Shown: in pieces, positions 16,106-51,308 of the stretch | How positions within the stretch are numbered: position 1 is the first letter of the stretch | How the letters are laid out: each line of letters starts with the position of its first letter | Assembly (NCBI GenBank): GCA_018607905.1 | Contig: JABBAP010000022.1 | Span: 1-58,239, forward strand | Direction of reading: 5' to 3' | Length of the DNA stretch: 58,239 nucleotides | Source of the DNA: Paracoccaceae bacterium | Lineage (GTDB): Bacteria; Pseudomonadota; Alphaproteobacteria; Rhodobacterales; Rhodobacteraceae | The notes under the pieces: generated by a model | The model's input: the letters and a program-made list of their open reading frames with translations, nothing else | Told to the model about the DNA's origin: nothing | Database searches by the model: none | Made by a program: the position numbers and the translations under genes

Positions 16106-16398
16106 CGGGGTCTCCTTTATCAGTTAAAGGGTTATGGCGCAGGCCGGGATGTCGTCCAGCAAGGCCCGTGGAGTATCCGCAATTAGGCGGATGGGGGTCT
16201 TTAGGCGCAATTGAGAGGAAAGGGAAGAGAAAATTCGGTGAATTGCGATGCCCCATAAATAGACGTTGTATTAACCATGATGAAGATAACTTTGGAAGTT
16301 AACCATTTGTTTCTGTTATCCGCATACCTAAATAGTTCGAGTAAATGGGGCGCTACTAGCAAGATTTGGTTTCAAAGCTACGCTTAGAGGATGTGATT
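16106..16398. other. Intergenic region between rpsO and the RTX gene
   Basis: 293 bases holding the divergent promoters of rpsO and the RTX-like gene. TTAACCAT occurs twice (about 16271 and 16299). The 7-mers GCCCCAT near 16250 and ATGGGGC near 16345 form a distant inverted pair. No RNA gene or convincing ORF is seen. Confidence 0.4.
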
Positions 16399-17286
16399 AT
16401 GTTAGAGATTTTGATCCTTTCAATACTAGGGTTTGCAGGCACTGCGATTGGCGGATTAGTCACTTCAGATGATGAGGGTAACGCTGCTGTTGATGAAGAA
16501 GATGCTGGCTCTGACGCCGCAGACGATCTGAGCGGTGATCTTTTGTTGGAGACGCTAGAAACTGAAATCCCAATTGATCCTGTTGTCGGCGAGCAAGTGG
16601 GTGTTGATGTGCTGATTGGTAGCGACCAAGACGATGTGTTGACGGATTGGACCGGAAGCAACGAGATGTATGGCGGTGACGGCGATGACACGTTGCAAGG
16701 AGGGTTTGACGTTGGCGAACTTAGCGAGCTGCACGGTGATGCTGGGAACGACGTGATCACAGATGGTGCATCCGATGCGATCATCTTTGGCGGTGAAGGT
16801 GATGATAGTATTGTTTCAGGCCACGGTGTCTCTGATATTTATGGCGGCGCGGGTGATGATGCAATTAGTACTGGGATAGACACGGATGTGATTCATGGTG
16901 ATGCTGGGAATGATACGATTACGGCAATTGGTACCGATACTGAAGGCGAAGTTGACGAAGTTTACGGCGGTGAGGGCGATGACACGTTGCAAATACGTGG
17001 CGCGACAGAAGCTTACGGTGGTGAAGGTGCGGACACATTTACAGGCTATTTCAATACCTGGGTAGATGAAGCGCCGACCGTGTTGGATTATAACGCCGCT
17101 GAGGACCAGCTAGAGGTGGATATTTACGCTCACGAAGGTGTCCAAGAATTAGACGATTTTGACATCAATGTTCAAGATTTTGAAGATGGTAGCGGCGCGT
17201 CGATTTACGTCGATGGAATCGAAGTGATGCGCATTCCAGGAGCGCAAGGTTTGGACCTAGCGGATGTGCAGTTGAACCTAGTTTAA
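16399..17286 (+). CDS. RTX-type calcium-binding repeat protein with N-terminal membrane segment
   Basis: A 295-residue, strongly acidic protein. It opens with a hydrophobic stretch (MLEILILSILGFAGTAIGGL), then an acidic linker, then about seven GGxGxD-type nonapeptide repeats between residues 85 and 220 (for example GGDGDDTLQGG, GGEGDDSIVSG, GGEGDDTLQIR). Such repeats fold as a calcium-bound beta-roll and usually mark type I secretion substrates, yet no ABC/HlyD/TolC genes are nearby. The N-terminal segment suggests anchoring, as known for roseobacter RTX proteins. Start ATG 16399 has AGAGGA 7 bases upstream; the longer TTG start at 16366 is less likely. Confidence 0.85.
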   Translation: MLEILILSILGFAGTAIGGLVTSDDEGNAAVDEEDAGSDAADDLSGDLLLETLETEIPIDPVVGEQVGVDVLIGSDQDDVLTDWTGSNEMYGGDGDDTLQGGFDVGELSELHGDAGNDVITDGASDAIIFGGEGDDSIVSGHGVSDIYGGAGDDAISTGIDTDVIHGDAGNDTITAIGTDTEGEVDEVYGGEGDDTLQIRGATEAYGGEGADTFTGYFNTWVDEAPTVLDYNAAEDQLEVDIYAHEGVQELDDFDINVQDFEDGSGASIYVDGIEVMRIPGAQGLDLADVQLNLV

Positions 17287-22109: not shown

Positions 22110-23213
22110 ATGATAACTAGATGTTTGATTGCGGCGGGTATTTCGCTTGTATTGGGTGCTGGAACTGTCGCTGCTCAAGGTTGTGGTGGCCTGTATACGA
22201 TCAAGCGGGGAGATTCCCTGTCGCTGATCGCAGATTCTCAATATAAAGATGCCAAAAAGTGGTCGGCTATCCATCAAAGCAACATCCAGAGCATCGGCAA
22301 AAACCCTGATAGCATCCGAGTTGGCCAGAAATTGCGCCTAACGTGCATCGGTGGGTTGCCTCAAGGGCTGGAAGGCGGGACAGAACAAACCGCTGCAAGC
22401 TCGATTGATGATACGGCTGTGGTCAAAACATCCAATAGCGCATCCGCGGCTGTTTAAGTTGCAGCAACAAATCGAAAAATCAAACTAGTTACTGCGGACG
22501 ATTACGCCCCGTTTACTGATCGAAAACTACCTGGCGGTGGTTTGATAACTGAAGTTGTTGATAGCGCGATGAAGAATAACGCGGAAGTCAAAGACTTTGG
22601 CATCTACGTCGTTAATAATTGGTCATCCCACTTAGATCCATTGCTGACAGATGCTGTGATGGATTTGGCATACCCGTGGTACAAGCCAGACTGTAAGGCG
22701 ATGCCAGACAATTGGCGGTGCGAAAATCTCTATTTCTCAGAGCCGATGTTTGAAATTTTGGTCCTACTGTTCACATCAAAAGATCGACCGATCGCGTTTA
22801 ATTCGGACAAAGACATGGAAGGTAAAACACTTTGTCGCCCGAAAGGGTACTTTACCCATGATCTGGAAGGAAATGGACGCCTTTGGCTGACCAAGGGGTT
22901 GGTGAAGCTAGTGCAACCAATCACGATGGCTGATTGTTTTGAAATGCTTGAAGAGGGCAAGATCGACGCGGTTGCGATCAATGAATTCACGGGCCGAACA
23001 GCCCTGAAAGATCTTAATCTTGAAGGTAAAGTAGACATTGTTCAATCGCGTCCTTTGTCGATTGAAGGCTTGCATGTTGTGGTTGGCAAATCGCACCCAC
23101 AAGCAGAAGAAATGTTAAACTTGATCAATGCAGGGCTATCTGGCCTGAAAGATTCAGGTGATTATCAAAAAATTATCGACAGCCACATGACGCGGATTTG
23201 GGAGAGCTTTTAG
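22110..23213 (+). pseudogene. LysM plus solute-binding fusion protein, copy 1, interrupted by in-frame TAA
   Basis: A signal peptide (MITRCLIAAGISLVLGAGTVAAQ) is followed by a LysM domain (YTIKRGDSLSLIAD, about 30-75) and a low-complexity linker. The frame then stops at TAA 22455-22457 and continues open in the same frame as VAATNRKIKLVTADDYAPF and a family-3-like solute-binding domain to 23213. The full 367-codon layout matches the adjacent copy (369 residues) domain for domain, so this is one gene with a single nonsense codon in the linker. The 223-codon downstream part has an ATG at 22542? no good start is visible there, and its first candidate lies inside the binding domain. It may be recent decay, sequencing error, or a split gene making a secreted LysM-only protein. 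Confidence 0.8.
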
Positions 23214-23249
23214 GAGCGAGATAATCCAAGCTGTGTTCGGGGAGACGTT

Positions 23250-24359
23250 ATGCTGAGACGATGGATTTTAAGTGGTGTGTTGGCATCTATTGCCGGCACT
23301 TCGATGGCACAAGAAGACTGTGGGCAAACGTATGTTCTGAAAAAGGGCGATACGCTTTTGTCTGTTGCGCAGGAGTATTATCAAGACCGCGGGAAATGGT
23401 CGGTTATCTATTACGCCAATGAGGAAGCATTGGGCGGAAATCTGGTTGATTTGCCAGAAGGCGTGACGTTGGACGTTCCTTGTATTGATGGTCAAAAACC
23501 AATTGTTGCTGCCATGCAGGCAGAAGAGCAACCTGTTGTGAAGGATGAAGAGCCCGTGGCGAAAACGGAACCGGTTCAGACGTTGCAGGCTGATCCAACC
23601 CCTTTGTTGCAAGATAACGCAGATATAAAGTTACTGACAGGATCGAACTACGCGCCATTTACCCAGCAAGATTGGCTTGGTGGTGGGATGTTTACTGAAT
23701 TGGTAAATGCGTCTTTTGAATCCGCACCAAGTCCGCTGCCGTTTTCAGTTACTTGGGAAAACGATTGGTCAAAACATCTGTTTCCACTGTTGGATGAAAA
23801 GAAATTCGATATGGGATTTCCTTGGATTCGCCCGAACTGCGATGCTGACCCCAAGAACGAACGTTGCGTCAATTTCCACTTTTCTGAACCTGTGTTTGAG
23901 GTTCTCGAATTGTTGTTTGCGAAAGCTGATAGCAAACTAGGCTTTTATGATGACTCTGATATTCACGGGGCATCTATTTGTCGCCCGACCGGCTATTTCA
24001 TCCATGACCTTGAAGAAAACGGGCGGCTATGGCTGACAAATAATTTGATTGATTTGGTGCGCGCCGACAGCCCGGCCGATTGTTTCAAAATGTTGACTGA
24101 TGGCAAAGTTGATTTTGTATCTGCCAACGAATTTTTAGGGCCAAGCACTATTGCTGAAATGGGGAAAACGGGCGCATTTAAAGCTATGGAGCGTGCGCTT
24201 TCGACATCCAGTTTGCATGTGGTTATTTCCAAAAATCACTGGCGTGGCACGACGAACCTGTATCGGTTCAATGCTGGCTTAGAGAAATTGAAAAAAACGC
24301 CTCGCTATAGTCAGATCGTTGACCGACACTGGAAGGTGTTTCGTGACAGCTTGAAATAA
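23250..24359 (+). CDS. LysM domain fused to a bacterial solute-binding-like domain, copy 2
   Basis: A 369-residue secreted protein. Order: signal peptide (about 1-20, ending TSMAQ), LysM (about 25-75, YVLKKGDTLLSVAQEYYQD), a glutamate-rich linker (about 80-130), and an SBP_bac_3-like periplasmic binding domain (about 130-369, starting IKLLTGSNYAPFT, with ICRPTGYFIHDL and PADCFKMLTDGKVDFVSANEF). LysM binds peptidoglycan, so the fusion would tether a ligand-binding domain to the cell wall. Four or more conserved Cys in the binding domain (RPNC, RC, SIC, ADC) suggest disulfides. No ABC permease is present, so sensing or scavenging is as likely as transport. It is a tandem paralogue of copy 1, 36 bases apart. 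Confidence 0.82.
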   Translation: MLRRWILSGVLASIAGTSMAQEDCGQTYVLKKGDTLLSVAQEYYQDRGKWSVIYYANEEALGGNLVDLPEGVTLDVPCIDGQKPIVAAMQAEEQPVVKDEEPVAKTEPVQTLQADPTPLLQDNADIKLLTGSNYAPFTQQDWLGGGMFTELVNASFESAPSPLPFSVTWENDWSKHLFPLLDEKKFDMGFPWIRPNCDADPKNERCVNFHFSEPVFEVLELLFAKADSKLGFYDDSDIHGASICRPTGYFIHDLEENGRLWLTNNLIDLVRADSPADCFKMLTDGKVDFVSANEFLGPSTIAEMGKTGAFKAMERALSTSSLHVVISKNHWRGTTNLYRFNAGLEKLKKTPRYSQIVDRHWKVFRDSLK

Positions 24360-43116: not shown

Positions 43117-44151
43117 ATGGACCCACAGATTGAGAGCATTCTTGATGCGTTAAGCGTGGCCGTTTTTATCGTGGATGCGAAACAAAAAATTACCTATCGA
43201 AACGCCGCTTCAGTGAGCCTGTTTGGCGCGGTTATTCCAAACAAAAAGCTGTCGTATTTTGTCCCTAAAAAGCGCTGTATTCGTGCCGTCAAAAAGGTAT
43301 TGGCTGGAGGAGAACGGCAAAGCGTTGATGTGCGTTTACAACTTGTTGTGCCAACGTCTTTTCGCATGACCGTTGTGCCGTTGAACACCGCTGGTACCGA
43401 AGCCGATGTTACGGCAGTCGTGAGTTTTGAAGATGTCAGCCACATTCTAGAAGCCGAGCAGATGCGCACCGATTTTGTGGCGAACGTAAGCCATGAATTG
43501 CGCTCACCTCTGACCGCGCTTTACGGTTTCATCGAAACTTTACAAGGCGCAGCGCGGTCTGACCAAAATGCCTCTGACCGGTTTTTAAAGCTGATGGAAC
43601 AAGAAGCAGCGCGCATGGCGCGTTTGGTTGATGATCTTTTGTCTCTGTCAAAATTGCAGTCCGAAGAACGCTATGCCCCGACCGAAAAAGTGAACGTAAA
43701 TCCCATATTGGAACGGGTTACAGCAACGCTCGCGCCCATTTTGAATACTGAAAAAGTTACCGTAGTCCCAAAACTGTCGTCAACGCTTCCAGACGTGTTT
43801 GGAAATGTTGACGAGTTAACACAAGTGTTTTCAAATTTGATCGAAAACGCAGCGAAGTATTCGCGGATTGGAGCAGAGATATCGATTTCCTCAACGGTTG
43901 ATGACAAAGAGCCTGACATGGTTCGCATCACTGTTTCTGATCAGGGCGAAGGCATCGCACCCGAACATATTGCTCGCTTGACGCAGCGGTTTTACCGCAT
44001 TGATAAAGGCCGGTCGCGCGATAAAGGGGGGACGGGATTGGGGTTGGCGATCGTCAAACATATCCTGATGCGCCATCGTGGCCGCCTGCAAATTAACAGT
44101 GTTTTGGGACAGGGCAGCACCTTTTCAGTGGTTTTACCGCGCGCAATCTGA
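43117..44151 (+). CDS. PhoR-type sensor histidine kinase without membrane helices
   Basis: A 344-residue kinase. A PAS-like domain (about 5-115) is followed by HisKA with phospho-acceptor H126 in FVANVSHELRSPLTALYG and HATPase (N box LIENAAKYS, G1 DQGEGI, G2 GGTGLGL). The block DFVANVSHELRTPLT with a soluble N-terminus is typical of roseobacter PhoR, which responds to phosphate together with the Pst system. Neither pst genes nor a response regulator are adjacent. The 212 bases upstream hold its promoter and that of the DUF1127 gene. Confidence 0.85.
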   Translation: MDPQIESILDALSVAVFIVDAKQKITYRNAASVSLFGAVIPNKKLSYFVPKKRCIRAVKKVLAGGERQSVDVRLQLVVPTSFRMTVVPLNTAGTEADVTAVVSFEDVSHILEAEQMRTDFVANVSHELRSPLTALYGFIETLQGAARSDQNASDRFLKLMEQEAARMARLVDDLLSLSKLQSEERYAPTEKVNVNPILERVTATLAPILNTEKVTVVPKLSSTLPDVFGNVDELTQVFSNLIENAAKYSRIGAEISISSTVDDKEPDMVRITVSDQGEGIAPEHIARLTQRFYRIDKGRSRDKGGTGLGLAIVKHILMRHRGRLQINSVLGQGSTFSVVLPRAI

Positions 44152-44274: not shown

Positions 44275-46353
44275 ATGAATTTCACCTGGAACACACCCAA
44301 AATGTCAGATGCGGCGGATGCCTATCTGGATTGGTTTGATCATGTCTATCAACCGGGCACCGATGGTGCGTATGGGTATGAAATCACGTTTGTGAAAATC
44401 AAACCGACGGGCAGCCCTGCCAGTTTTGCGAACACGTTGTCTTGGCTTGCGGATAAAGCCGACAATGCGACCGCCAGCTCGGATTTCTTGATGGACAATG
44501 TGGAAAGGGAGCGCCTTTCTGCTTTGTTGACCTCTCCGCCCTCCGGCGATGATGCACCCGATTTGTTTTTACACAGGAATCGGTCTGACAAAGATTTTGC
44601 GGCAAAATATGAAATGGAATTTGACGTCATTGCGAATGGTGCAGCACGCCCGACCAATCCTTTGTCGCCTAAACCAACGACGCCAATGCCTGCACCGATC
44701 GTGGCAATCGTGGACGATGCAATCGGATATTTGAATGCACGATTTTGCTCGGATGCAACGGGTACACGAAAAACCCGGCTGAACCGTATCTGGTTGCAAA
44801 CTGAGGATGAATTAGTGGCTGAAGGAAGCCTCTTGGCTATGCAAAATGGCCAGCAAATTGACGCCGATGCCATTGATGCGCTTCTTTCAAAGGGATCAGC
44901 GTTGGATGAGTCTGCGCAATATGGGGCGATCAATGATGCCTTGTTTGGCAGCCGGATCAGCTCGATTTGGCACGGCATAACGGCGGGTGCTGGATCTGAA
45001 TTGGCAAGCACTCATGGATCACACGTTGCTGATATTGCCGCCGGTGCGGACCCTGCAAATGCAACCGATCCATTGCTGTCTTGCCCAATGCTCGCAGTGC
45101 AACTTCCGCCCCAAGCGGTCGAAGATACTTCAGGGTCAAAACTGCAACCCTATGTTGTTCGCGCCATTCGCTGGATTATTGAACAAGCAGATGCGTTGAT
45201 CGTGGACGGCGTTCATCGTCCATTGATCGTGAACCTATCATTGGGCGTTTTGGCTGGATCAAAAGACGGAACCAGCCTGATTGAGCGCCAAATCGCAGCG
45301 GAAGTGATCCGCCGAGAAGCCCGCGCTGGCATGCCAATGCGTGTGGTTTTCGCGTTCGGTAACGACAATCTAACCCGCCAAACGGGGTATATGGAGTTGA
45401 AACCAGATGCCCCGCAAGATGTGACACTGCGTGTGCAGCCCGAAGATTACACACCAAGTTTTGTCGAGCTGCGCGGCGATGAACCCCAAGATTTACGTCT
45501 GGAAATTGACTGTTTAGGCGCAGCTCCATTGGCTTTGGCATCCATCCCAGCGGGCAAATCAGTATCTCTGGTTGGATCAAATGGGCAGGGCGTAGCACGC
45601 GTATATTCAATGGCATCCACGCCCCTAGACGGCGGCAGCGAAACCAAAGCCTTTTATGTTGTGGCAATCGCGCCAACAGCTTCGTTCGAAGGTGGAAAAC
45701 CAATAGCACCTTGTGGCTCATGGAAAATTACGCTTGGCACACAAACCAAAGCGCAAAACGTCCGGATCGAAGTCCAAAGAGACGATCGTCCCCTCGGCTT
45801 TCAGGCATTGGCGCGACAGGCCTATCTTGATGACGCTGCATTATGGGATTGGACTGAACCCAAAAAGGAACCTTACACCCCGCGTGCAAATGGGCCTGTT
45901 ACGTCGCGCGGTACGCATTCGGCTTGGCTGTCAGAAACCATGCCTGAACAAATCTACAGCGCTGGTGCAATGCTAGAGGACACTGGTTTTGCAGCTCCCT
46001 ATAGCGCAACAGGTGCGCCTTATGTTCGCAAAGAACCGAGCCTTTCGGCGGTCGGAGACAGCAGCTGGACCTTGCGCGGTGTGATGGCCAGCGGCACGCT
46101 AAGTGGAACGACGGCCGTGCTTTCAGGTACATCAGTGGCTGCTCCTCAAATCACCCGAGAATTGGCGATTTTGTTCTCAAGTAATCCCGATATCGGGCCT
46201 TGGAACACGGCGGCGCAGAACGCCAATCACGAAATGGATTGGCTGAAAAACCTGCCTTGGTCGTTTGAGCCTGCGGTCCAAACTGATCAACTTGGGCCCG
46301 TGACAATTTCAAGCAAAGTGGGGATACGGCCCCGCATGGATCAGGCCCACTAA
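44275..46353 (+). CDS. Leaderless subtilisin-like (S8) serine peptidase
   Basis: A 692-residue S8-family protein. Catalytic Asp is D147 in VAIVDDAIG, His H247 in THGSHVADIAAG, the oxyanion Asn N362 in FAFGND, and Ser S619 in LSGTSVAAP. The spacing from N362 to S619 is much longer than in subtilisin, because a beta-rich insertion (about 370-500) is present. An N-terminal 140-residue region without similarity that I know and no signal peptide precede the domain. ATG 44275 follows GGGAG at 44266-44270; longer in-frame starts exist at 44200 and 44260. It shares a bidirectional terminator with the collagen-PAP2 gene. Confidence 0.85.
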   Translation: MNFTWNTPKMSDAADAYLDWFDHVYQPGTDGAYGYEITFVKIKPTGSPASFANTLSWLADKADNATASSDFLMDNVERERLSALLTSPPSGDDAPDLFLHRNRSDKDFAAKYEMEFDVIANGAARPTNPLSPKPTTPMPAPIVAIVDDAIGYLNARFCSDATGTRKTRLNRIWLQTEDELVAEGSLLAMQNGQQIDADAIDALLSKGSALDESAQYGAINDALFGSRISSIWHGITAGAGSELASTHGSHVADIAAGADPANATDPLLSCPMLAVQLPPQAVEDTSGSKLQPYVVRAIRWIIEQADALIVDGVHRPLIVNLSLGVLAGSKDGTSLIERQIAAEVIRREARAGMPMRVVFAFGNDNLTRQTGYMELKPDAPQDVTLRVQPEDYTPSFVELRGDEPQDLRLEIDCLGAAPLALASIPAGKSVSLVGSNGQGVARVYSMASTPLDGGSETKAFYVVAIAPTASFEGGKPIAPCGSWKITLGTQTKAQNVRIEVQRDDRPLGFQALARQAYLDDAALWDWTEPKKEPYTPRANGPVTSRGTHSAWLSETMPEQIYSAGAMLEDTGFAAPYSATGAPYVRKEPSLSAVGDSSWTLRGVMASGTLSGTTAVLSGTSVAAPQITRELAILFSSNPDIGPWNTAAQNANHEMDWLKNLPWSFEPAVQTDQLGPVTISSKVGIRPRMDQAH

Positions 46354-46355
46354 TT

Positions 46356-46389
46356 GCAAAACGCGGCGCATTTTTGTGCCGCGTTTTGC
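46356..46389. terminator. Strong bidirectional terminator
   Basis: A 14-bp stem with one G-T pair (46356-46369 with 46376-46389) and a T-rich loop sits between the two convergent stop codons. AAAA/TTTT inside the stem gives a U tract in both directions. Confidence 0.8.
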
Positions 46390-46406
46390 TTAGTTGATTT
46401 TTGTAC

Positions 46407-47552
46407 TTAGTCAGCCCATTCGTCAGCCGCTGCATCCCACAGTTTCGACAGCAAATTTGTTCGGCCTTTTGTAGGCAGATCAAATTCTGTCTTTGTGATC
46501 GTAGGGTTGCTACCGCTTTCGCCAGCGGGCGGCATCGTTTCACCCAAAAGCGTAAGATTGAAATCACCGTCAAACGCGCCACCATTAAACGCATAGCTTG
46601 ATGCCTTTTTCGCACCGCGAGAATAGTTGATGATAAGCTCAGCAATCCCGATCCCAAGGGCCGCACCCGCAACGCTGTCGGTTGGAAAATGAACCCCCGC
46701 CACAGTTCGGTTCAGCGCAATACGTGCCGCCAAACGGTATGCAGGCAATTGATCGCGTACCCCTTTCACCGGGTTTTTGTAATTGAGATCCGTTAAATAC
46801 GCCATCAAAGTCGCTGCTGCAAACGCCTCTGTCGCATGACCGCTTGGCCAAGTCCCGTGCCCAGGCGTTTGGATCATCGGTTGGACCTCTTGGGCAAAAG
46901 CAATCGGACGCGGGCAATCAAACAACTGCTTCAATCGCATTTCGCACACCTGACACGTGCGCTGGATCAAAGCGTACATTTCCAGCGTCCATTTATTGCT
47001 GCTGCTGGACAGATAACTTAACGCACCAAAAAACGGCGTAAGATCACCGACTTGCGTTTCAATTTCGGCTTGGCGATCAAACCGAAGATCGGCAGCGGCA
47101 CGTAAATATCGCAATTGATCCTCAAAATTCTCAAGGCTTGGTCTGGATAAGTTAACAATCGGCTCATCCATGCCACCGCCAACAAAGCGAATACCTGCGG
47201 TGTTGTGTTCAACGGTCGAATCGACACGAATAACCCCCATAATCTCCGCTAAAATGGCTGCTGATCGGGGATAGGCCCCCATTTTCTTAAAGGTTTTCCA
47301 CTGCCGTTCTGCGCTGCTGCCATTGCCAGATTGATAATGCACTGGCCGTGTCGGCGTGCCGTCCCAAAACCGCTGTGTACCATCGCGCGTGGTAATTAAC
47401 GCAGTTCCAGCATATGGGTTTCCCGAATATCCCTGTGGCCCTTGTGGACCCTGCGGGCCTTGTGGTCCCTGGGGCGTTTGTGGCCCCTGCGGGCCTTGGG
47501 GCCCCTGTGGACCTTGCGGGCCCTGAGGTCCTTGCGGGGTAAAAACTGCCAT
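46407..47552 (-). CDS. Collagen-like repeat fused to PAP2 phosphatase/haloperoxidase-like domain
   Basis: A 381-residue protein. Residues 6-41 are twelve P-Q-G triplets with one PQT break, a collagen-like stretch in register as Gly-Pro-Gln. The rest is a PAP2-superfamily domain with the complete signature: KX6RP (K208, R215), PSGH (236-239) and N-RX5HX3D (R282, H288, D292), with Asn replacing the usual Ser before Arg. This active site holds phosphate in acid phosphatases and vanadate in haloperoxidases. No membrane helices and no signal peptide are seen. The fusion is unusual. Neighbours are a leaderless subtilase and a SARP-like regulator. Confidence 0.85.
47430..47537 (-). repeat. 9-bp repeats encoding PQG triplets
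   Basis: Twelve 9-bp units encode Pro-Gln-Gly. Codons vary (CCG/CCT/CCA/CCC, CAA/CAG, GGA/GGC/GGT/GGG), so the pattern is held at protein level rather than by recent DNA slippage. Confidence 0.95.
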
Positions 47553-47736
47553 TTTTCAATCTCCATTTTTCTATCCGTTGATTGAAATTCTTACCAACGC
47601 CCTTGTCAAATTTTCAAAGAGCTTGGGTTCGATTATTCACGATTTTTTCACAAAACACCAAAAAGACCTGCTAGTCTGCTACCAAGGGGTGACTAAGCGT
47701 GGCTTTCGCGCGGTCCATGAATACCAGAAGGCGAAG

Positions 47737-49335
47737 TTGGGCGAAGTGTCGAAGTTTATCAAAATTCAGGTTATTGGGCCATTTCAAGCAATTGGACCTA
47801 ACGGCGAAAATTTGACGCCCAAGGGTGCAAAGGCGTGTGCATTGCTCGCGATTTTGGCTTTGACTGATGGAAAGTCACGCCCAAGACGCTTTCTTGAAGA
47901 AAAATTATGGAGCGGGCGGGCCCCCGAGCAAGCGGGGCAAAGCCTTCGCCAAGAACTTACACAAATTCGCCGTGCTTTTGGGGATCATGCAGATTTTTTT
48001 ATCGTTGATCGTTCCAGTGCAAGGCTCGACCCAGAGTTCGTGAGTGTTGATCTAGATGATCTTTTGACCGTACCCGAGGATGGACGCGAACTGCTCGAAG
48101 GATTGTTGGTGCGCGACGCCGCGTTTGATGCATGGCTCACTGAAGTACGAAGCGCGTTTGGGCGCCGAAAAACTGCGATAGCTGCCAAACAAAAGGGCCT
48201 TGTCCTTCGGACGCGCCCGATTGCGCCAAATTCAGGTGCACAGGGTATTCTTGGCGATGTATTGGCCAATCAAATCGGCGAAAATATTGCAGAACAGGTA
48301 CGGGCATGGCGTCAAGTAAATGTGCGTATGGCCCAAACTGATCAAGACGCCGCCGAAATTGAAATTGATGCGCAAGTGGCGGAAGAGAATGGCCAAAGCC
48401 TTGCGTTTATTCGGCTAATTCATGCTGGAACTGGTCGTGTTTTGCATACCCAAAAGGCCCAAGTGGATGCCAGTTCGATGCGCGCTGCGACCGAGGATCT
48501 ATTGGCAGATATCACCATTGAGGCCGCGGAGAAAACGCTGGACGCGATGGCGCTTGCCTTTCCTTCAGAGCGCCCAGAATTGGCGTCGGCTGCGATGGCA
48601 CGGCGCGCTGTGCGTGAAATGGAAACATTTGAAGCCAGCCGATTGGATGTGGCGGATCAATTATTACGAACTGCCTTTGATATTGATCAAAATGGGCTTT
48701 TCCTCGCGTGGCAAAGCCTGTTGAAGACAATCCAAATGACCGAGTTGCTGAGTTCTGATGGGGCCGCTGATCTGGAAATGGTCGAAAGTTTAAACCGAAA
48801 AGCCATAGAAATGGACGGCGACAACCCCTTAGTGCAGGCGTTGGTTAATCAGGTCCAAGTTTTGATGTTTACGGATTTGGGTGCCGCCAATGCAGCCGCA
48901 AGTAGTCGTCTCGATCCAAATCTTTCCGGCGCGTTCTCTATGTCTTCGATGGCCAGTGCAAATATGTGGGAAGGCGACACGGAAACCGCCTATCACTTGA
49001 CCAAAAAAGCGACGACTTTGGCCAGGCGGTCCAGCTTTCATCATTGGTGGGACACGTTCCACTGTATTAGCTGCATCGCATCAGGGCGATACGAAGAAGC
49101 CATTCAGTTTGGCGAGTCCGCCGCCCGTGTAACGCCAAATTTCCGCCCCCCGCTCCGACATCTTTTGGCGTTGTACGCACATATGGGGGATCGCGAAAAA
49201 ATGTGGGATATGGTTGCCGCATTGCAGCGTTTAGAACCTGATTTCTCGCTTGATAAGTTCAAGTTTGACGAGTCTTATCCCGTGCGCACCCTTCGTCGCG
49301 CCAAATTATTGGATTTTCCCACAGAAGAGTCATAG
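47737..49335 (+). CDS. SARP-like transcriptional regulator with TPR-type C-terminus
   Basis: Residues after the chosen start give an OmpR/SARP-like winged helix (IKIQVIGPFQAIGPNGE, then LLAILALTDGKSRPRRFLEEKLWS and SLRQELTQIRRAFG), a BTAD-like part, a beta-rich middle domain as in adenylate cyclase-type regulators, and helical TPR-like repeats at the end (AAFTDLG.., HHWWDTFHCISCIASGRYEEAIQFGE). The frame is open from TTG 47578, but that would leave only 25 bases to the divergent gene. TTG 47737 (or GTG 47746) puts the start just before the domain. It probably controls the subtilase/collagen-PAP2 locus. Confidence 0.75.
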   Translation: MGEVSKFIKIQVIGPFQAIGPNGENLTPKGAKACALLAILALTDGKSRPRRFLEEKLWSGRAPEQAGQSLRQELTQIRRAFGDHADFFIVDRSSARLDPEFVSVDLDDLLTVPEDGRELLEGLLVRDAAFDAWLTEVRSAFGRRKTAIAAKQKGLVLRTRPIAPNSGAQGILGDVLANQIGENIAEQVRAWRQVNVRMAQTDQDAAEIEIDAQVAEENGQSLAFIRLIHAGTGRVLHTQKAQVDASSMRAATEDLLADITIEAAEKTLDAMALAFPSERPELASAAMARRAVREMETFEASRLDVADQLLRTAFDIDQNGLFLAWQSLLKTIQMTELLSSDGAADLEMVESLNRKAIEMDGDNPLVQALVNQVQVLMFTDLGAANAAASSRLDPNLSGAFSMSSMASANMWEGDTETAYHLTKKATTLARRSSFHHWWDTFHCISCIASGRYEEAIQFGESAARVTPNFRPPLRHLLALYAHMGDREKMWDMVAALQRLEPDFSLDKFKFDESYPVRTLRRAKLLDFPTEES

Positions 49336-49393: not shown

Positions 49394-50362
49394 ATGGCAT
49401 TGGAAGACGCAGCAACATCTATCGACGAAGCCTTCACCCGCGAAGGTTATAAGGGTAACGCTTTTGAGGCAACTTATGCAGGCGCGCTATCGTTTTTACG
49501 ACGAACCTATACCAAGGACCTAACGGATGCTGATGTTGCTGTGACCGGAATTCCGTTCGATTGCGCGGTCACTAATCGGCCAGGAACGCGGTTTGGTCCA
49601 CGCGCTGTTCGAGAGGCAAGTGCGCTGCAATCACCAGATGCGCCCTATGGCTGGGATGTGAATCCGATGACGGAGTTTAATGTGGTTGATTATGGCGACG
49701 TGGCCTTTGATCATGCAAAAATTTGGGAGTTTCCAAAGGCGTTGCAAGACCACATTGCGGGTATTTTAGCGACGGATACGGCTTGTTTGGCCATCGGTGG
49801 CGATCATTATGTCAGTTACCCGATTTTAAAGGCCCATGCCGAAAAGTACGGTCCGCTATCCCTGCTACATTTTGATGCGCATTCAGACACTTGGGTGGAT
49901 GACGACCCTGATCGGATTGATCACGGGACGATGTTTTACAAGGCCGTCAAAGAGGGTTTGATTGATGTGGAGCGATCTGTTCAGGTTGGAATTCGCAGCA
50001 CAAACGAAGACAATTTGGGTGTCCCTACAATTGATGCGGCAGAGGTGCATCGCATAGGCCCAGAAGCAGTGGTGGATAAGATCAAGTCTATCTTGAAGGA
50101 TCATCAAACCTATCTAACTTTTGATATTGATTGCCTTGATCCTGCTTTCGCACCTGGTACCGGGACGCCCGTTTGGGGCGGATTATCGAGCGGACAGGCA
50201 GCGGCGATTCTACGGGGATTGGCGGGGATCAATATTGTTGGCATGGATGTTGTCGAGGTTTCACCACAATATGACGTAAGCGGAGCAACAGCCATCGCGG
50301 GCGCGCATGTAGGCGTAGAATTGTTGTGCCTTTGGGCGCATCGTCAAAAGTTTGGAGGCTGA
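49394..50362 (+). CDS. Agmatinase-family ureohydrolase, copy 1
   Basis: A 322-residue binuclear manganese hydrolase that splits guanidino compounds into an amine and urea. Metal ligands: H138 (GGDHY), D161, H163, D165 (FDAHSD) and TFDIDCLDPAF. The first block DCAVTNRPGTRFGPRAVREAS is typical. Only about half as similar to the next gene as two agmatinases of one type would be, so substrates may differ (agmatine, guanidinobutyrate or others). ATG 49394 follows AGGGAGA; the longer start at 49250 overlaps the regulator. One base separates it from copy 2. Confidence 0.88.
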   Translation: MALEDAATSIDEAFTREGYKGNAFEATYAGALSFLRRTYTKDLTDADVAVTGIPFDCAVTNRPGTRFGPRAVREASALQSPDAPYGWDVNPMTEFNVVDYGDVAFDHAKIWEFPKALQDHIAGILATDTACLAIGGDHYVSYPILKAHAEKYGPLSLLHFDAHSDTWVDDDPDRIDHGTMFYKAVKEGLIDVERSVQVGIRSTNEDNLGVPTIDAAEVHRIGPEAVVDKIKSILKDHQTYLTFDIDCLDPAFAPGTGTPVWGGLSSGQAAAILRGLAGINIVGMDVVEVSPQYDVSGATAIAGAHVGVELLCLWAHRQKFGG

Positions 50363-50363
50363 T

Positions 50364-51308
50364 ATGCCAAACCAACCCCTAGGTGGAAATGAGATGCCGC
50401 GTTTTGCGGGGCCGGGAACATTTATGCGTTTACCTGCGGCTGAAACAGCCGAGGGCCTTGATGTTGGGTTTATCGGCATTCCGATGGATATCGGCACCAG
50501 TTGGCGCTCTGGCACGCGGTTTGGCCCCAAACAAATTCGCGCCGAAAGCAATATGCTGCGCCCCTATAATATGTGGACCCGTGCCGCGCCGTTCGATCAT
50601 CTGCAATGTGCTGATCTAGGCGACGTGCCGATCAATACCTTCGATCTAAAGGACTCGGTTCGCCGTATTACACAATACTATGACACGGTTTTGGAACACG
50701 ACGTGATCCCGATGACGTTGGGGGGCGATCACACGCTGACCCTGCCTATTTTACGATCAATCGCCAAGAAACACGGACCTGTGGCGCTGGTGCATGTGGA
50801 TGCCCACGCCGACATAAACGAACACATGTTTGGTGAAGAAATTGCCCACGGAACACCCTTTCGCCGCGCCCATGAAGAAGGGCTACTGCAAGACGACAAA
50901 GTGTTTCAGATCGGCTTGCGCGGAACAGGATATGCCGCCGATGATTTCGACGAAGCCCGCCGCTGGGGATTTACCGTTATCCAAGCCGAGGAGTTGTGGC
51001 ACAAATCGCTGGCCCCTTTGGCAGAGCGGATCAAAGCGCATATCGGCGATGTGCCGTGTTACATTACCTATGACATCGACAGCCTTGACCCTGCCTTTGC
51101 GCCCGGCACTGGGACACCCGAAATTTGTGGTCTGACGCCGCCCCAAGCCGTGGAATTGATCCGTGGCTTGCAGGGACTGAACATTGTTGGCGCGGATCTG
51201 GTCGAAGTATCACCGCCCTATGATCCAACGGGAAATACGGCGCTTGTGGGTGCAAATATCTTATACGAAATGCTGTGCATTTTACCGGGTGTGGAAACCG
51301 GAAACTGA
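50364..51308 (+). CDS. Agmatinase-family ureohydrolase, copy 2
   Basis: A 314-residue enzyme of the same family. Metal blocks GGDHTLTLP, VHVDAHADIN and TYDIDSLDPAFAPGTG are complete, and GTSWRSGTRFGPKQIRAES matches alphaproteobacterial agmatinases (SpeB type). GGAGG at 50354-50358 is inside the end of copy 1, 5 bases before the ATG, so the pair is coupled. It would make putrescine and urea from agmatine if it is a true agmatinase. The zinc dehydrogenase follows 22 bases downstream. Confidence 0.9.
   Translation: MPNQPLGGNEMPRFAGPGTFMRLPAAETAEGLDVGFIGIPMDIGTSWRSGTRFGPKQIRAESNMLRPYNMWTRAAPFDHLQCADLGDVPINTFDLKDSVRRITQYYDTVLEHDVIPMTLGGDHTLTLPILRSIAKKHGPVALVHVDAHADINEHMFGEEIAHGTPFRRAHEEGLLQDDKVFQIGLRGTGYAADDFDEARRWGFTVIQAEELWHKSLAPLAERIKAHIGDVPCYITYDIDSLDPAFAPGTGTPEICGLTPPQAVELIRGLQGLNIVGADLVEVSPPYDPTGNTALVGANILYEMLCILPGVETGN

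Follow-up and report, generated by a model that had tools for sequence, protein, structure and literature searches.

Csp proteins, a group of subtilases, act in clostridial spore germination. Class A acid phosphatases are exported enzymes, and RRNPP regulators, whose DNA-binding domain is of the XRE type, read peptides in Gram-positive bacteria. Likenesses to all three groups meet at positions 44,275 to 49,335 of a 58,239-nucleotide contig of a Paracoccaceae bacterium (GCA_018607905.1, JABBAP010000022.1), the whole of which is called the window here. Three genes adjoin at this locus: an S8 subtilase (SUB), a PAP2-superfamily enzyme that begins with a tandem array of one short peptide, and a regulator (REG) with a winged helix and TPR. 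This trio is a conserved and, as far as the literature shows, undescribed system. That a linked system exists, with arrays uniform within a gene and spelled anew between lineages, is close to certain. Searches of the open-licence PubMed Central literature listed no paper whose title and opening lines of the abstract describe the trio or such arrays.

Conservation of the three-gene locus

We scanned 84,980 species, with a single genome each, for PAP2 relatives and took the best 80 of at least 575 relatives, a sample leaning to near relatives. In 78 of these 80 loci, SUB and the regulator lie beside PAP2 (6-kb flanks), and in the remaining two, L159 and L131, a contig end interrupts the locus. 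Across 101 related genomes there are 17 places with SUB, in 15 genomes. Matches to PAP2 and the regulator stand beside all 17, with the trio match spread across two contigs in one case (G005). The first-pass annotation had guessed that the three families form a system, to be checked by their co-occurrence in related genomes, and on this count the guess survives its own refutation test.

Among 398 genomes of the phylum, a PAP2 match is present in 27 (E 1e-15) and a SUB match in 22 (E 1e-12), with 16 genomes in common. The PAP2 match falls below E 1e-70 at 17 places, and at each of them SUB is on the same contig. Gene order and strand vary. In G034 the order is subtilase, regulator, PAP2, with the regulator on the opposite strand, and in Phaeobacter it is regulator, PAP2, subtilase, all in one direction. 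Five loci with SUB only (L251-L255, 9.7-15 kb, out of six such genomes) yielded no PAP2, regulator or array.

A chance neighbourhood is rejected on the linkage counts. As for a phage or defence origin, 50,697 phage records hold no PAP2 match at E 1e-5. Viral contigs hold three weak PAP2 relatives, and the two distinct ones that pass the motif filter both lack the array. PADLOC gives a weak subtilase model match (7.5e-4) and no model match for the trio. This origin is rejected on these three results.

The N-terminal peptide array

We merged 149 PAP2 open reading frames (ORFs) into 121 distinct homologues, and 118 of them carry the N-terminal tandem array of one short peptide. In two of the other three records, L185 and L209, masked bases stand in place of the array, and the third gene (L059) is cut by a contig end. 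The array is almost limited to this gene. Over 100 loci, where six genomes enter under two locus numbers, it is present in 95 of 98 PAP2 genes and in 4 of 870 other genes of at least 120 amino acids. The three PAP2 genes without it go back to two: a truncated gene counted twice and a gene whose array is masked.

The spelling of the unit is highly variable. There are 69 distinct units up to rotation among the 118 arrays, such as NSQ, GGL, GKM, NAE, SR and GGGAG, with GPQ in the window. The period is mostly 3 (103 arrays), followed by 4 (7), 2 (3), 5 (3) and 6 (2), and the median array has 9 copies and 28 residues. Glycine is absent from the unit in 26 arrays. Proline is present in 7, six of them from the window's genus, and absent from 111. 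Most arrays (84) have a unit without net charge; the others divide into 18 with a negative and 16 with a positive unit. Deviating units occur, for example the two TPQ in the window's array. The array of the window is predicted to be disordered, with blocks at 35-41 in the predicted local distance difference test (pLDDT) of AlphaFold2 (AF2) and residues 1-42 below 50. A second (GPQ)3 stretch that could act as partner was looked for in the window's genome (assembly 95.9% complete), and the exact pattern is found only in the PAP2 gene.

Between close relatives the unit is mostly kept. Pairs of enzymes share the unit in 10 of 10 cases at 90% identity or more, in 17 of 23 at 80-90%, in 13 of 18 at 70-80% and in 17 of 103 at 60-70%. 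All nine Phaeobacter records fetched (of 21 found) keep NSF, and copy number alone varies, from 5 to 7. Three relatives with pairwise enzyme identities of 85-89% read GGF x12, GGL x11 and SGF x11. As far as the sequences tell, the unit is replaced as a whole between lineages.

Codon usage bears on how the peptide is kept. Compared codon by codon, adjacent units give 2,233 synonymous pairs, 861 identical ones and 33 non-synonymous ones, and since the non-synonymous pairs are so few beside the synonymous ones, the exact repeat peptide is, on codon evidence, under strong selection. Adjacent copies differ in codon in 2,242 of 3,087 comparisons, against 1,911 +/- 23 when permuted (z +14), sharing being rarer than in the permuted arrays. 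Copies two and three apart are more alike in codon than permuted (z -5.8 and -3.2). In the window's array, no two of the six adjacent units compared have the same DNA word. Our reading is that arrays would grow by blocks of two or three units, with identical neighbouring DNA words avoided or lost and the peptide held fixed.

Organisation of the locus in the window

The features of the locus are as follows.

44275..46353, + strand: SUB, S8 subtilase of 692 amino acids (PF00082, 4.4e-14; D147, H247, S620; no signal peptide by eye)
46350..46395, no strand: hairpin between the convergent SUB and PAP2 genes, a probable two-way terminator (-30.4 kcal/mol, z -6.8)
46407..47552, - strand: PAP2-superfamily enzyme of 381 amino acids (PF01569, 1.4e-15; AF2 pLDDT 87; no signal peptide by eye)
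47433..47540, - strand: N-terminal array TPQ(GPQ)6TPQ(GPQ)4, 12 tripeptide units, residues 5-40 (pLDDT 35-41)
47553..47739, no strand: divergent intergenic region between PAP2 and REG (conserved blocks in alignment)
47740..49335, + strand: REG, with AfsR/SARP-type winged helix, middle domain and C-terminal TPR (profile matches)

The contiguity of an S8 peptidase, a PAP2 protein and a SARP-like regulator, as first annotated, is borne out by Pfam and profile matches. The absence of an export signal from both enzymes agrees with inspection by eye. The start codon of REG is uncertain. PAP2 and the regulator are divergent, so the trio is not one operon. The hairpin has a 15-bp core stem, and the claim of a strong terminator stands to that extent; it sits between SUB and PAP2 and does not frame the trio, as had been proposed. 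A scan for promoters and for terminators (the latter limited to loops of 3-8) gave sites not above shuffles, and this hairpin is not among its listed sites. Blocks of the region between PAP2 and REG are conserved in an alignment of the window with five loci of the same genus.

The PAP2 enzyme and the peptidase

The PAP2 enzyme has all of the superfamily motifs, KX6RP, PSGH and RX5HX3D. In an alignment of 74 rows, K208, R215-P216, P236-S237-x-H239, R282, H288 and D292 are invariant, and an extra stretch, LRxYADLRxDRxxEI, is conserved. Foldseek of the model places class A acid phosphatases first (7f17, E 4.9e-5, target TM-score (TMt) 0.66) and a bacterial vanadium iodoperoxidase lower (4cit, E 6e-3). 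The profile search has the same order, with the class A acid phosphatase 7f17 again at the top (1.5e-19) and the vanadium haloperoxidase 1qi9 at 1.6e-8. Motifs of the superfamily cannot separate haloperoxidase from phosphatase. By motifs and model, the chemistry may be either phosphoester hydrolysis or vanadate-dependent halide oxidation.

SUB consists of an N-terminal region, the catalytic domain and an inserted beta domain. D147, H247, G618 and S620 are invariant in a 65-row alignment, giving a complete S8 triad within a PF00082 domain. The aspartate and histidine of the first-pass triad hold, and its S619 does not, the catalytic serine being S620 when counted from the ATG at 44275. The model is confident (AF2 pLDDT 90), and its best Foldseek match is CspB (4i0w, E 8.3e-21, TMt 0.76).

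The peptidase is not always a subtilase. We looked at 15 loci with weaker PAP2 relatives (L256-L270), chosen from 8 of the 11 genomes with PAP2 and no SUB, six from a much longer list of relatives, and L256 from a genome with both. The array is present in 12 of them, with the units QTQ, DAR, TGN, AGN, NK (twice), GGNWF, SR, SK, NR, NAV and NRD. All 12 have a regulator match and a peptidase, which is of family S8 in ten (L256, by profile, and L257, L260, L261, L264, L265, L266, L268, L269 and L270). In the other two, A4-family peptidases (PF01828; L258:6002-7051 and L259:7783-8850) replace the subtilase. The peptidase is on the far side of the regulator in L257 and L269. Neither array nor regulator was found in L262 and L263. 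The last locus, L267 (5449-8128), is decayed, with the regulator match kept, no array, the PAP2 motif reading PGHH and the peptidase in pieces. The occurrence of two peptidase families in one system suggests that proteolysis itself is required. As a peptidase is present even where the family is swapped, the possibility that it acts on the repeat gains weight.

The regulator

The family profile of REG matches AfsR (8hvr, 7.4e-6) with its N-terminal winged helix and TPR structures with its C-terminus. The single sequence has weak Pfam matches only (Trans_reg_C 0.018, TPR_2 0.2). Among the 56 members of the alignment, TPR_19 is found in 27 and Trans_reg_C in 9 (best 4.6e-4, weak). A BTAD model is listed neither for the window's REG nor among the 20 families matched by these members, and TPR is found instead.

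The output part differs between loci. It is a nucleotide cyclase in L225, L258, L259, L264 and L268 and a winged helix in L265, L266 and L270, several of the matches in these two groups being below Pfam's cut-off. TPR at E up to 0.01 is present in 10 of 10 regulators scanned, some below Pfam's cut-off. By domain content, the output domain of REG is exchanged between lineages while the TPR part is retained.

In the loci examined, each complete and unmasked PAP2 homologue next to a regulator has the array, apart from the decayed L267. We surveyed relatives without an array among ORFs with the PS[GAN]H motif, in loci from L016 on. All 12 complete ones match weakly, and the short stretches covered contain no REG.

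Function of the array

We compared the partners of PAP2 in 213 pairs from 74 loci, of which 23 pairs share a unit, with two sets of covariates and several statistics. In pairs with the same unit, the TPR regions of REG are more similar at matched enzyme divergence, by +0.057 +/- 0.015 with pairs taken as independent. Tree simulations of unit switching, with switching rates set to either side of the observed count of same-unit pairs, give P 0.009-0.037 for the TPR region and P 0.065-0.161 for the winged-helix part. This hints at a match of the unit with the regulator rather than with the peptidase.

The explanation that we tentatively favour, at somewhat less than even chances, is that the array serves as a recognition code, with the TPR regulator as its reader and the peptidase as the enzyme that handles it. 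The array would be a multivalent tag bound by the TPR superhelix of REG. REG, as a DNA-binding protein or, in other lineages, a nucleotide cyclase, would sense how much of the tagged enzyme there is, or what state it is in. Removal or cutting of the array by the peptidase would be an on-off switch for binding, and perhaps for the enzyme too. All repeats would stay alike because a single groove must accept each of them, and the spelling would drift because tag and reader change together. Binding of the array to REG and its cleavage by the peptidase are the steps that we infer here.

Several results weigh against this explanation. With periods from 2 to 6, the arrays do not easily suit a single groove. 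In L267, REG is present without an array, next to a PAP2 and a peptidase that look degenerate. The P value for the TPR region rises to 0.047-0.092 once the rest of REG is controlled for, and to 0.11-0.30 when switching is too fast (rates 6 and 8, with few valid simulations at rates above these). The catalytic part of SUB has no covariation with the unit (P 0.95-0.97 for at least the observed value in the tree simulations), which speaks against a unit-tuned peptidase. The covariation signal is weak overall, and was sought with several statistics.

Other explanations meet the same facts in different ways. The uniform repeat could be a self-assembly tag that sticks PAP2 to its own kind, in bundles, filaments or condensates, with the peptidase dissolving them and the regulator serving expression only. 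In its favour, a uniform repeat lends itself to packing with its own kind, glycine is abundant in many units, and the monomer model has the array disordered. However, units such as SR, NK, NAE, DAR, NRD and GWE, with periods of 2 to 6 and mixed charge, allow no single packing mode, and the link to a TPR protein is left unexplained; we hold self-assembly to be unlikely. A released signal, by analogy with RRNPP systems, is a minor possibility. Here a peptidase of any family would cut the array into many identical peptides of two to six residues, to be read by the TPR regulator as a private signal of enzyme level or damage. This would explain the uniformity, the tolerance of copy number (as in the Phaeobacter records), the lineage spelling, the constant peptidase and the retained TPR. 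Against it, PAP2 has no visible signal peptide, SUB does not covary with the unit, and the candidate precursor is an enzyme rather than a small exported peptide. If true, it would be a proteobacterial class of peptide signalling where one protein is both message and effector, and where the message can be respelled as a whole, in concert.

The position of the array, N-terminal, disordered and ahead of an enzyme with no visible signal peptide, would also suit a loading or export tag for a non-Sec delivery route. So many spellings are unlikely for one machine, and no secretion machinery was recognised among the 25 largest neighbour clusters, most of them unannotated, which makes this quite improbable. 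A collagen-like module is a very poor prospect. The first-pass annotation had read the repeat as collagen-like and able to trimerise the enzyme, and the GPQ/TPQ array of the window does resemble the Pfam collagen model at 1.4e-5 and 25.2 bits, short of the cut-off of 27.2. That reading falls with the homologues, which keep the tandem array but swap GPQ for non-collagen units. Gly-X-Y with proline is found only in the window's genus, and the collagen reading is accidental to it. Arrays with periods of 2, 4 and 5 cannot make a triple helix, and the collagen trimer is rejected on unit composition and period. Lastly, copy number differs among close relatives, as mutational slippage without function would have it. 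The rarity of non-synonymous differences, the under-representation of identical adjacent codons and the near-constant presence of the array leave this scarcely credible, and a slippage artefact is rejected on the codon counts.

Returning to the recognition code, the TPR protein next door is, on sequence grounds, the probable reader of the array, and the peptidase next door would be the processing enzyme of the proposed code. The results suggest a hitherto undescribed kind of recognition code. A repeat that is near-exact within a gene, fixed by selection and replaced whole between lineages is a natural experiment in rewriting such a code. Furthermore, it offers a testable function for genes named by their domains in marine and soil Proteobacteria, including those on Phaeobacter plasmids.

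Neighbouring genes

Two kinds of peroxidase-type genes are found near the trio in other loci. Of 100 loci, 24 (with two genomes counted twice) have a member of a family of about 500 residues beside the subtilase or separated from it by a single small ORF, for example L138:9529-11121. We aligned 14 of the family's 25 ORFs. None of the 14 has a Pfam match, and the profile matches a vanadium bromoperoxidase (5lpc, 3.5e-58). The active-site motifs look degenerate by eye on the alignment, and this is possibly a pseudo-haloperoxidase family. In 7 of 100 loci (L065, L074, L180, L184, L190, L198, L202) and in L265, the trio has next to it an animal-type haem peroxidase gene, identified by PF03098 in the two scanned and by similarity in the rest. 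These neighbours favour an oxidant or halogen context for the system, as judged from gene content, but the window's trio has neither gene beside it.

In the window, a PAS/HisKA histidine kinase (43117-44151) is directly upstream of SUB and co-directional with it, and its homologues lie beside the trio in other loci of the genus. Downstream of the regulator are two neighbouring ureohydrolase genes, agmatinase- or arginase-like (49394-51308, named by eye). Elsewhere, inspection by eye finds two adjacent similar solute-binding-like proteins, perhaps a duplication (22542-24359), and a short acidic RTX-like repeat protein (16366-17286).

Comparison with known systems

The catalytic motifs and core fold of PAP2 are those of class A (non-specific) acid phosphatases (7f17, PhoN, PhoC). 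The enzyme of the window differs from them in being larger, in having no signal peptide by eye, and in its array and extra conserved stretch. With vanadium-dependent haloperoxidases it shares the superfamily and motif spacing, and some other loci have peroxidase-type neighbours, but the structural match is weaker. The Csp germination subtilases (CspB, CspC, CspA) are the best fold match of SUB, whereas its partner genes differ from theirs.

In terms of the array, bacterial collagen-like proteins (Scl, Lcl, BclA) resemble the GPQ repeat of the window's genus, with weak matches to Scl/Lcl models, but Gly-X-Y is not conserved in the PAP2 array family. As for the regulator, SARP/AfsR proteins have the same architecture of winged helix and TPR. 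REG differs from them by its place with PAP2 and a peptidase, and by the cyclase output of other lineages. Finally, RRNPP regulators combine a DNA-binding domain with TPR, and share with this locus a peptidase and a possible source of peptide close by. REG, in contrast, has a winged helix; its binding of peptide is hypothetical, and the possible source is an array on a 381-residue enzyme that has no visible signal peptide.

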